A stretch of DNA of 29,289 nt from a virus (IMGVR_UViG_3300009177_000095:1-29289); one strand, 5' to 3'; shown: positions 78 through 20,525, counted from the stretch's first letter. Made by a program: numbers and translations. The notes: generated from the sequence alone by a model not told the origin.

Positions 78-110
78 CCGCCCCCTGGGCGGACCCCCTC
101 CCCACCCCCC
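78..110. repeat. hairpin plus C-tract element, copy A
   Basis: A perfect stem CCGCCC-CCT-GGGCGG (78-92, extended by a T-A pair at 77/93) is followed by a C-tract interrupted only by one T and one A (94-110). The same architecture occurs at 193-226 (opposite strand) and 20491-20525. On the minus strand the tract is a G-run that could form a G-quadruplex. Function unknown; it lies in the gap past the end of the leftward operon. Confidence 0.6.
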
Positions 111-192
111 TCGGACGCTATGTAGGGAATAAGAAGGAGCGCCGCCAAGCGAATAGACTTGCTGGGCGCTAGGCTATCTCACTTGCAGGCGC

Positions 193-226
193 GGGGAGGG
201 GTGGGGGGCACGCCCAGAGGGCGTGC
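193..226. repeat. hairpin plus G/C-tract element, copy B (inverted)
   Basis: On the plus strand a G-tract broken by one A and one T (193-208) runs directly into a stem GCACGCCC-AGA-GGGCGTGC (208-226). Read on the minus strand this is hairpin followed by C-tract, the same design as copies A and C. Copies A and B point towards each other across about 80 bp that contain no recognisable gene. Confidence 0.6.
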
Positions 227-233
227 AACATCA

Positions 234-285
234 GGGCCGCGTGGTTGCTTCAGTTTTTGAAGTAGCCACGCGGCCCTTTTGTTTT
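234..285 (+). terminator. strong rightward rho-independent terminator carrying a YTTCA-N5-TGAAR core
   Basis: An 11-bp stem GGGCCGCGTGG (234-244) pairs with CCACGCGGCCC (266-276) and is followed by TTTTGTTTT (277-285). Inside the loop a second stem CTTCA/TGAAG (248-262) forms after a TTG/TAG internal loop. The T-tract lies on the plus strand, so it ends rightward transcripts entering from the left. The leftward operon stops at 284, immediately before the hairpin, but lacks a U-tract on that side. The inner stem is also one of the seven copies of the dispersed palindrome. Confidence 0.85.
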
Positions 286-2548
286 ACTCGCGGGTGGTAG
301 TGCCCACGTACGCTGGAGGCAGCGTGGTCGTTGGAGGCGACGTCGTGGTGGGGGACTGGACACCGACGGCACGGGCCATTCCCGCTGCGCCAGCATCCGT
401 GAGTTCCTTCTGCCGGCGGGCGATCTCGTCGGGAGCGAGGAGCCCGTACTTGCGGAGGAGCTCCTCGGGACTGAGGCCGACCTCGTTCAAGGCCCGCACG
501 GCGAGACGGGTGGTGTACTTCGGGGCATAGCCCTTGGCCACGTTCTCAGCGGCCTTGAGCATGAACCTTGAGGCCGTCTTGCTGGACAGGATCTTGTTGA
601 CGACTTCGGGGGCGAACATCGTGATGGCCAGGGTGCCGACGCCGGCGAAGCCAGTCTGGGTGTAGTTCGCGAGGCCGAGGAGATTCGCCAGGCTGGTGGT
701 CAGGGTGCCGTAGGTCATGACACGGCCCCATGACAGCGCCTGGCTGGTCGACGCCGCTGTGTCGTCGATGAGATTCATGACCTTGGTGTACTTGCGGAGG
801 TTGTCCCCGTACTCGCGGCCGAGCGTGGCGTTGAGGAATTCCTTCGTGTAGCCAGCGTCCCACTGGCCCAGAATCTTGGGGAGCTTCTTGGGATTGATGA
901 CTTCCCCCATATCGACAGCCCCAGAGATCGCCGAGTTCTTGATGTGGCCACGAACAGAGTCTATGATCTGTTGGCCGTTGGGTGTGTCCTTGACGGCTAT
1001 CTCCAGGCGCTTGAGGGACTGGGCATCCCCGAGGTCGATGATCGTGTCTGCGAACTCCTTGGCCACGGGTTCGACCTGGTGGAACAGCCCGTGGACGTAT
1101 GCACTCTTGTACTGCTTGGAGTAGATCTCGTTGTCCGCGTCGGACCATTTGCGGTACATCTGCCGGGGCACGGAAGGGAGGCCCTTCTCTGTGGCCTGGT
1201 CAAGTCGCTCGATGTACCATGCTGCGAGCTTGCGCTCCTTGTCGTTGGCGTCGAGGTTCTGAGCGATCTCGTTGAGGCTGTTCCGAATCACTTGGCCCTG
1301 CCCGAACGTGGAGCCCGTGTTGAGCTGGTTGATCAGCTTGGTTGCCGCACTGTCTGGGTTGCGGCGGTTCGCGAGGTTCTTGAGCTTGGAGTAGTCGATC
1401 TGCTGCGCAACCGTGAGCGCTTTGGGATTCAGTTGCAGGCTCGAGTTGTTCCAGATGTTCATCTCGATGCCGTGCATTGCTTCGTCCCGCGCGGCGGTCA
1501 GGAGCTTGAACTCGTCATTCAAGGCCCCGTGGATGGCACGGCCCAGCTCTTCTCGAGGAAGCACGTCGGCGTACTTGATGCCCAGGTCCTCGATCAACGA
1601 GGCGCGAGCCAAGATCGAACGGTTCGTGTTGTACAGCGCGTCGGGTGTGAGTGCCGACGTGGCCATCACTCCCTCGAACTTGCGGAAGGTGGAGTTTGGG
1701 ATCTTGGACGGAAGGAGTCCGTTGGTGACCGCGACATTGCGGGCCGTGCGAGGATCGAGTCCTTCTTCCTCGAGGTTCTTGACTACCCAGGACTTGTCGA
1801 GCTCTGTCTCCGCAGACGTGAACAGCCGGTAGGGGCTGTACCACTTGCGGGTGTCCTCCATGATCGGGTGTTGGGCGATCGACTCGTAGACCTCGCGAAG
1901 GCGCCGGCCGTGCTCCTTCATCCACTCCGCGCTCTCGGTAGTCATGAACCGACGCCAGGGAGCAAGGCGAGTCATGACAGAGCCGATGCCCTGACTCCAG
2001 GTCTCGTTATACGCCTCCTCCATGCCCGCGGCGGAAGCCCCGTGAACCCAGTCGTCGAAGCTGTCAGGGGCGCCTGGCAGGCCCAGACCCTTGCGGGCTG
2101 CGTCGAGTGTCAGCGATGTACCTGCACCGCCAAGGCCAGCACCCAAGATCGCGGCTCCGGTATAGACAGCGGCTCCGAGAGGTGGGCTGATGGCAGTAGC
2201 CGCAGCAGCTGTCTCTGCAGCCAGAGACTGTGCTCCTATAGACCCTGCTATTGGTCCAGCGATCCGGGCTGTGCTTTCGAGCACGTTCTGGGTTGTGGAG
2301 GCAGACGGTGGAACTGCCGGCGGGGGCGGAACTGCTACGTCAGGTCCTTGGTCTGGGAAAGCTCCCCCGGCAGCCATTGGCTTGGGCTGTGCCGCCTCCG
2401 TGACCTGAGCCTTCTTTGCTTCGAGCTTGGCGAGGTCCTCTTGCTGCTCCTTCTCGAGATCAGCCAGCGTTTTCTCGAACAGGCCTTGCTCGAACTTGCT
2501 CAGCTTTTTGGGCGGCTGAGTTGGGTCTTGGGTCGCAAGGTCAGGCAT
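284..2548 (-). CDS. large internal virion / ejection-type protein
   Basis: Protein of 754 residues, last gene of the leftward operon. The N-terminus (about 1-55) is charged and predicted coiled coil. A Pro/Ala-rich linker follows, then a long Ala/Gly-rich hydrophobic stretch at about 90-150 that could insert in a membrane. A largely helical charged body follows, with another Gly/Ala/Leu-rich hydrophobic stretch around 620-680 and a Thr/Pro-rich tail. Two hydrophobic stretches in a long helical protein at the end of a podovirus late operon, after other helical virion proteins, fit an ejected core protein such as T7 gp15/gp16 or P22 gp16/gp20; this is inferred from position and composition, as I see no recognised motif. 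No transglycosylase signature was found. The start is supported by GAGGG upstream of ATG. Confidence 0.6.
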   Translation of the reverse strand: MPDLATQDPTQPPKKLSKFEQGLFEKTLADLEKEQQEDLAKLEAKKAQVTEAAQPKPMAAGGAFPDQGPDVAVPPPPAVPPSASTTQNVLESTARIAGPIAGSIGAQSLAAETAAAATAISPPLGAAVYTGAAILGAGLGGAGTSLTLDAARKGLGLPGAPDSFDDWVHGASAAGMEEAYNETWSQGIGSVMTRLAPWRRFMTTESAEWMKEHGRRLREVYESIAQHPIMEDTRKWYSPYRLFTSAETELDKSWVVKNLEEEGLDPRTARNVAVTNGLLPSKIPNSTFRKFEGVMATSALTPDALYNTNRSILARASLIEDLGIKYADVLPREELGRAIHGALNDEFKLLTAARDEAMHGIEMNIWNNSSLQLNPKALTVAQQIDYSKLKNLANRRNPDSAATKLINQLNTGSTFGQGQVIRNSLNEIAQNLDANDKERKLAAWYIERLDQATEKGLPSVPRQMYRKWSDADNEIYSKQYKSAYVHGLFHQVEPVAKEFADTIIDLGDAQSLKRLEIAVKDTPNGQQIIDSVRGHIKNSAISGAVDMGEVINPKKLPKILGQWDAGYTKEFLNATLGREYGDNLRKYTKVMNLIDDTAASTSQALSWGRVMTYGTLTTSLANLLGLANYTQTGFAGVGTLAITMFAPEVVNKILSSKTASRFMLKAAENVAKGYAPKYTTRLAVRALNEVGLSPEELLRKYGLLAPDEIARRQKELTDAGAAGMARAVGVQSPTTTSPPTTTLPPAYVGTTTRE

Positions 2549-19897: not shown

Positions 19898-20097
19898 CTC
19901 TCCCCCTTCTTGAGAATCATGAACATTTGCGCCGGCGTCTTGCTAAAACGCTGCAAAACACCTACGAAGTCACCTTTTACGCCCGTTCGGCGGAAAAGTT
20001 CGGCTTTTTCCCCAGGAGTCATCCCTTGAGAGACTCGGCGACGGTACGTCGGGTCTGAATCAGGGCCTTTTAGGTGATTTTCGAGCAATTCCCGCAC
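19894..20097 (-). CDS. hypothetical small basic protein
   Basis: Protein of 67 residues with a GTG start at 20097, preceded by GAGGG. It is basic and helical, with DPTYRRRVSQGMTPGEKAELFRRTGVKGDFVGVLQRFSKTPAQMFMILKKGER. The C-terminal helix is amphipathic. No recognised family. It overlaps the next gene by four bases, supporting reality. The charge could suit nucleic-acid or portal binding. Confidence 0.45.
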   Translation of the reverse strand: MRELLENHLKGPDSDPTYRRRVSQGMTPGEKAELFRRTGVKGDFVGVLQRFSKTPAQMFMILKKGER

Positions 20098-20107
20098 GTT
20101 TTGGCCC

Positions 20108-20476
20108 TCAGATGAAGTAAAGGTCGACGTTCATGTCCACGCCGCCCATCATCAGGAAGTTTTGCGGTGTCGTAGGCTTCGGGAGCATGATCAGACGCTT
20201 TGGATCTGCCTCAAACAGGTCCATGGCGAAGAAATTGCTCGGGTCTAGCTCCCGCTTGAGCAGAAAAGCGCCATCCACACGTGGAAGAACGAGCAAAAGG
20301 TTCACGGGAGCGTCAACCGGGGTATCCGGCCACTCGATTGGCAGGCTCCAAATGAGCTCCTTGAGCCTCATGGTCGTGTGGATCGCGTTCATCTGCGCTA
20401 TGGTCACGATGTCGAGAAGGTCGCGGACACCATTCCCGTCATCGTTCACGAGGTAGAATCTAGATGTATTCGGCAT
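20108..20476 (-). CDS. hypothetical protein between terL and portal genes
   Basis: Protein of 122 residues, starting at ATG 20476 with GGAGG six bases before. The longer frame to 20518 runs through the hairpin/C-tract element and is not supported. A hydrophobic mix of strands and helices includes LLLVLPRVDGAFLLKREL and DLFEADPKRLIMLPKPTTPQNFLMMGGV. No family is recognised. It may be a head-tail or packaging-linked protein. Confidence 0.5.
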   Translation of the reverse strand: MPNTSRFYLVNDDGNGVRDLLDIVTIAQMNAIHTTMRLKELIWSLPIEWPDTPVDAPVNLLLVLPRVDGAFLLKRELDPSNFFAMDLFEADPKRLIMLPKPTTPQNFLMMGGVDMNVDLYFI

Positions 20477-20490
20477 TTGTCCTCCAGATT

Positions 20491-20525
20491 GCCTGCCCCT
20501 TGGGCAGGCCCCCCCCACCCCACCC
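20491..20525. repeat. hairpin plus C-tract element, copy C
   Basis: Stem GCCTGCCC-CTT-GGGCAGGC (20491-20509) is followed by a C-tract broken by two A residues (to 20525). It sits in the gap between terL (stop at 20557) and the gene starting at 20476. On the minus strand, the direction of transcription, the RNA would carry a G-tract that could form a quadruplex, followed by the hairpin and then the SD. It may be a stem for attenuation or mRNA processing; no T-tract follows. Confidence 0.6.

Follow-up and report, generated by a model that had tools for sequence, protein, structure and literature searches.

A hairpin and C-tract element of an uncultivated podovirus as a probable member of a family of short dispersed repeats

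What are the hairpins joined to C tracts that occur three times in the virus record IMGVR_UViG_3300009177_000095:1-29289? This 29.3-kb record, referred to in its entirety as the window, had been read as carrying an element of conserved design that could be an mRNA-stability or pausing element or a mobile repeat. We favor, at a probability of roughly 55%, the explanation that the copies represent a short (about 50-75 bp) dispersed repeat of one podovirus family, which we take from metagenome project numbers to inhabit soil, and that this repeat behaves like miniature insertion DNA. Its core would be a C/G tract with a conserved tail of ~20 bp; in the clade of the window, the outer end of the tract would have gained a GCCC-NNN-GGGC hairpin, and copies would have reached further sites through insertion or through non-allelic copying from one site to another.

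The three window copies (W1 to W3) share one architecture: a perfect stem of 7-8 bp with a three-base loop and the GCCC-NNN-GGGC core, directly abutted by 15-17 nt of C interrupted by single A or T, then a tail common to each copy, which an alignment of seven copies from the clade gives as about GCTCGGTAGGGAATAA / GCTCGGTAGGGAATAAG. W1, on the plus strand, lies just 3' of a TAG stop at 73-75, with the hairpin TCCGCCC-CCT-GGGCGGA at 77-93, the C tract CCCCCTCCCCACCCCCC at 94-110 and the tail at 111-132, where TAGGGAATAAG starts at about 123 and AGGGAATA at 124. W2 is on the minus strand; its hairpin GCACGCCC-TCT-GGGCGTGC occupies 208-226 (read 226 to 208), its C tract 193-207, and its tail, a degenerate GCGCCTGCAAGTGAGATAG, 172-192. 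W3, again on the plus strand, sits in the gap that separates terL from the late gene after it and is antisense to both, with the hairpin GCCTGCCC-CTT-GGGCAGGC at 20491-20509, the C tract at 20510-20525 and the tail AGGAGCCAGGAATAGAACTAG at 20526-20546. The three copies exist as given by the sequence-only reading, which described a facing pair at the end of the leftward operon and a third copy after terL, and which was right that W1 to W3 are not U-tract terminators, the stem being followed in every copy by C and not by U. The hairpin with its C tract was also correctly seen as a real element, but it is a clade-specific variant of a wider one, and the tail had been missed.

Could such a simple design arise by chance, from low-complexity C runs beside ordinary GC-rich hairpins in a 60% GC genome, with composition producing the similarity among copies? 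C tracts alone do have a nonzero random expectation of 0.2 per 10 kb, and pairing between tail and tract is within what composition predicts: as one long hairpin, a fold that we rejected, the two have energies within those of tail shuffles on either strand (median p about 0.35-0.39). However, dinucleotide shuffles predict 0.05 matches to GCCC-N3-GGGC with a C run behind it, and perfect stems of at least 6 bp with a triloop and a C tract were observed three times in the window versus 0.007 in Markov shuffles, which confirms the three copies originally reported. In the 46.6-kb relative G001, whose TerL is 86% identical to that of the window, the same test returned four copies versus 0.013 expected. 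With two genomes sharing sites, compensated stems and tail, coincidence becomes a very improbable explanation.

The G001 copies lie at 2374 (minus strand, G2), 12641 (minus, G12), 33150 (plus, G33p) and 33299 (minus, G33m). G12, G33p and G33m match the sites and orientation of W3, W2 and W1, respectively, and G2 sits within the 3' end of a coding region. All seven copies in these two phages have triloop hairpins of 15-19 nt, 94.6% of their stem cells form standard pairs, and three of eight pairs have changed on both sides. Covariation involved 7 cells versus 2.2 in shuffles, with a score above those of all 500 shuffles and a signal that was abolished by sliding the pairing partner, although the score should not be read as a probability because the copies are related and kinship inflates the counts. 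Selection on structure, which had been suggested from the window copies alone, is thereby supported at the level of sequence comparison. The covariance (structure-plus-sequence) model R1, built from the seven copies, gave 8 full matches of 62-74 bits, all in the window clade and one of them in L004; the search took in 716 kb from the family and 832 kb from control phages, and no other match reached 21 bits. Rfam 15 produced no window match above the gathering score. By these searches, the complete element of hairpin, C tract and tail is confined to the window clade.

Outside the clade, the element appears to continue without its hairpin. The hairpin pattern is missing from complete relatives whose TerL identity is 70-76%; several relatives have, at the site between terL and the next gene, pyrimidine-rich sequence and then a G tract, which on the opposite strand is a C tract with a CCGGAGGGGCTGGTAAGGGTAAAC-like tail. 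This hairpin-less unit (C tract plus CCGGAGGGGCTGGTAAGGG-like tail) is dispersed, occurring in the terL gap, near polA and primase, and near the convergent operon end. Complete family genomes have 0.84 C/G tracts per 10 kb versus 0.21 in shuffles; other podoviruses have 0.01 per 10 kb, a density that is low partly by composition because their own shuffles give only 0.02. The tail of L007 is intermediate (GGGCTCGGTAGGGAGAGA). With the window clade left out of its training, a tail profile ranked the G001 copy at 33243 first in the window and G001 (E value of 0.42, next 33), and leave-one-genome-out tail searches placed known sites first in G004, G006, G008, G009, G011 and L110. In G007 no tract-plus-tail copy was found, and G009 gave tail matches only. 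Taken together, the shared sites and tails make it likely that the clade element and the hairpin-less element are related. Searches by exact pattern for tract plus tail had 0 matches in 84,980 host genomes, and the host search with TerL brought up only a 27% relative.

Several lines of comparison point to insertion-like behavior. Copies within a genome resemble each other (identity of 0.494) more than do same-site copies from other clades (0.391) or copies at different sites (0.387); in 2,000 permutations, the within-genome excess was reached 0 times and the same-site versus different-site difference 666 times. G12 is closer to W2 (86% over 44 bp) than to its own ortholog W3 (0.46), which suggests copying between sites. 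The terL junction offers both empty and filled states. Where the element is absent, the next ATG overlaps the terL stop (TGATG) in L008 and L019 or lies one base past it in L009; in L005, L006, L187 and L189, the element and a second ACTG stand directly 5' of the same gene's ATG. L188 also has ACTG at this junction, where the next gene was not called.

The unit also lies inside genes. A small gene found between polA and primase in L110 and G011, and after primase in G004, carries the unit in frame as a Pro-rich linker between conserved ends; L116 shares the C-terminal part, in which it has the tail and no tract. In a second small gene (G011, G008, L110 and probably G006), the unit on the other strand encodes a Gly-rich linker; the G004 homolog, matched by BLASTP in its N-terminal part only, has a short linker without the unit. 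In both protein families, the repeat lies in frame in a low-complexity linker with homologous ends on either side. The tail encodes a conserved PEGLV peptide in the polA-primase small gene, so that its conservation there comes partly through protein coding.

Dispersed sites, within-genome homogenization and empty and filled junctions make a mobile repeat the better of the proposals in the sequence-only reading. Several observations nonetheless weigh against our explanation. No actual movement or recent transposition was observed, the spread being read from comparison of genomes. The clade element connects to the hairpin-less form through a 20-bp tail and shared sites, and composition could partly explain why copies within a genome are similar. 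Measured against miniature inverted-repeat transposable elements, the repeat had no terminal inverted repeats that we could find, and a possible ACTGA duplication was confined to the terL junction. The ACTG duplication is a short one, and the genomes that carry it may share a single ancestral event. REP-type tyrosine transposase (PF01797; REP, repetitive extragenic palindromic) was absent from 9 phage records, with five control genomes positive. Because the tail encodes PEGLV, the repeat family may have begun as coding sequence. Finally, the orientation kept at individual sites over deep divergence, as in 13 of 13 junctions after terL, would suit a functional site too.

Orientation deserves attention, with the reservation that gene calls in the relatives came from a simple hexamer scorer. 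The late genes of the window (portal, head and terL) are transcribed leftward, and the late and replication operons converge where W1 and W2 sit. These two copies face each other between the stop at 284 of the final gene of the late operon (754 amino acids, minus strand, 284-2548) and the rightward frame ending at 73-75. At the other site, terL (20557-22098, minus strand) is the upstream late-operon neighbor of W3, and the gene after it (122 amino acids, minus strand, 20108-20476, with its ATG at 20476) is 76% identical in G001. Differences between the latter two homologs number 21, 15 and 46 at codon positions 1, 2 and 3, a pattern that places the gene on the late strand; W3 therefore gives the late mRNA a G tract, not a C tract. 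The G strand is likewise in the late mRNA at all 13 element-bearing terL junctions, while the C strand is sense at 7/7 convergent-end copies and at 5/5 copies between polA and primase; at several early sites it runs antisense to the genes. Given this mixture, orientation is fixed per site, not relative to transcription.

The sense orientation of W1, W2 and their G001 counterparts at the convergent end of both operons is what a non-canonical transcription-end element would show. In such an element, a hairpin after the stop codon would define or protect the RNA 3' end, the C-rich, G-poor tract would act as a Rho-loading or pause site, and the facing pair would insulate the convergent operons. 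The stops before W1 and G33m are within a few bases of the stem, the stems are compensated, and for similarly placed REPs a role as RNA elements has been proposed (PMC3733652). A stable hairpin near a stop or operon end combined with C-rich RNA would, judging from sequence, suit 3'-end protection or Rho loading at W1 and W2, the only window copies whose C-rich strand is sense. However, W3 and the corresponding copies of 13 genomes run antisense to the flanking genes, G2 is inside a coding 3' end and G004a is inside an open gene; W3 and the intragenic copies cannot serve as 3'-end elements in the sense direction. A terminator-like hairpin with a U tract is already available to the rightward transcript at 233-277, and complete relatives manage without any hairpin of the clade type. 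As a general account of the copies, we consider a transcription-end role unlikely. Within the dispersed-repeat explanation, it could still account for retention: clade copies just past stop codons may have been kept because the hairpin protects or defines RNA 3' ends, and the hairpin variant probably acts on RNA 3' ends as well.

Conserved sites and orientation, homogenization within genomes and a short asymmetric conserved tail would also be expected of a repeated binding site, stoperator-like in its fixed places and orientation, that coevolves with a DNA- or RNA-binding factor encoded by the phage. A ParB-like methyltransferase fusion is encoded by all complete relatives examined, but this candidate factor was rejected when its distribution did not track that of the element, as it also occurs in G007 and G009. 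No repressor was identified, the orientation relative to transcription is mixed, unlike that of stoperators, and some copies lie inside coding linkers, all of which makes a binding site a distinctly improbable explanation.

If the copies are instead dispersed repeats, they may have spread with the help of the phage's own exonuclease and single-strand-binding (SSB) recombination proteins, and G-rich or hairpin DNA might provide a recombinogenic or polymerase-stalling structure. Quadruplexes on the G strand, proposed earlier, are plausible for some copies given high G4Hunter scores (1.8-3.5), but four G3 runs are present in only some, and a four-run quadruplex is not a constant feature because W1, W2 and G12 have only three runs of G3 or longer; the G strand of W3, by comparison, has four G runs. 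Whole-element folding z-scores were modest. More tentatively, one could picture a miniature repeat without a transposase that, by way of its G-rich or hairpin DNA, spreads inside podovirus genomes and from one to another, enters intergenic gaps and in-frame linkers, and is homogenized in each genome, with the selected hairpin of one clade now marking operon ends.

To our knowledge, bacterial chromosomes have supplied good descriptions of miniature dispersed repeats, of which little is known in the compact genomes of phages. Should the present repeat move or convert between sites, it would offer a compact system for observing how a structured repeat spreads, is homogenized and is tolerated inside proteins, and how insertion at the terL junction exchanges an overlapping stop and start for a new leader. 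Should it be a regulatory hairpin, RNA ends would be defined without a U tract in an uncultivated phage family.

Other features of these genomes emerged along the way. Past the TAG before W1 (73-138) and at G001 33230-33305, the frame continues uninterrupted across the element as far as a TAA within the tail, and the post-TAG frames at W1 and G33m would encode Pro-rich extensions ending ..RE; in-frame readthrough was set aside since the open frame is indistinguishable from chance. A T7-type phage RNA polymerase promoter, considered for the resemblance of TAGGGAATA to an initiation region, was discarded as the copies point the wrong way, and no phage RNA polymerase was among the G001 replication-operon proteins scanned. 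Among the products of that operon are a DUF3987 primase, a ParB-like/N6_N4 methyltransferase, a PD-(D/E)XK nuclease, a protein that weakly matches single-strand-binding protein, and a family A DNA polymerase to which a uracil-DNA glycosylase domain is fused. This polymerase (L042:15106-17418) is a single protein of 770 amino acids with matches to models for uracil-DNA glycosylase, for 3'-5' exonuclease and for family A DNA polymerase, and homologs of similar length are found across the family. At L042:17418-18827, a ParB-like N-terminal domain is fused to an N6/N4 DNA methyltransferase, an arrangement kept in all complete relatives examined.

Additional hairpins were also noted. The one at window positions 233-277, overlooked previously, has 20 bp followed by a T run on the plus strand, and its CTTCAA..TTGAAG core recurs at the late-operon end in several relatives, mostly without the T run. 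An 11-bp GC hairpin flanked by A/T, with TTTTG on one side, occurs at 26008-26033 in the window and at L041 7165-7190 in G001, apparently corresponding places, and is a probable intrinsic terminator. Other hairpins in the relatives (G006 28770 and 26778, G008 2312 and 4097, G009 20453 and G011 40011) have repeated motifs at their flanks, GGTGCAATC or GGTGTCAAC, arranged as either inverted or direct repeats, and are possibly operator-like sites. Eight viral contigs (L044, L047 and L056; L049, L054, L055, L058 and L062) have a conserved GCCCTTCGGGC hairpin with TAGGGAATAGCC about 35-45 nt on; as a GCCCTTCGGGC ... AGGGAATA pattern, they were judged chance or unrelated, with a different context and no C tract. 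Other viral-contig matches to a hairpin plus C run were mostly 4-bp stems or low-complexity runs.

How does the element compare with systems already described? Like intrinsic terminators, it can place a GC-rich hairpin just past a stop codon, but a C tract replaces the U tract, and antisense or intragenic copies occur. T4-type phages are reported to carry promoter-early stem-loop cassettes with early promoters and terminator stem-loops (Arbiol et al. 2010). Those cassettes would resemble our element as phage-resident stem-loops at gene borders linked to gene shuffling, and would differ in that a C tract and tail are present here and no promoter was shown. Mycobacteriophage stoperators and the start-associated sequences SAS and extended SAS (ESAS) are also short gene-border repeats whose consensus varies by phage group (PMC9283540, PMC3203893). 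Stoperators follow the direction of transcription (PMC9283540) and SAS/ESAS repeats lie at gene starts (PMC3203893), whereas our element does neither, its C strand being sense at the convergent-end and polA-primase sites and antisense at terL.

Rickettsia palindromic elements (RPEs) are found in frame inside unrelated protein-coding genes and elsewhere (Ogata et al. 2000, 2002, as described in PMC10969869), and the two small-protein families supply in-frame copies of the same kind. Our repeat is likened to them by placement, not sequence: it is about 50-75 bp versus about 150 bp, is phage-borne, and yields a Pro- or Gly-rich linker according to strand. REP elements (GTAG/CGTC families) are thought to be both RNA hairpins and miniature mobile DNA and are short dispersed hairpins found mostly after genes and between convergent genes, often in facing pairs, and in some cases within genes (PMC3733652). 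The clade copies show much of this pattern, with the W1/W2 and G001 pairs downstream of convergent genes and facing, and with stem-loops that fit the 20-40 bp palindrome of REPs while being, at 15-19 nt, slightly shorter than typical. Unlike REPs, they are phage-borne, number only 3-4 per genome, have a long C tract and tail, and have no consistent GTAG or CGTC tag beside the stem; GTAG is near the stem in some copies only, overlapping the TAG stop in W1, G33p and G33m, and is absent beside W2, W3 and G2. Although we file it as a member of neither group, by analogy the element works like a dispersed repeat of the REP or RPE type.

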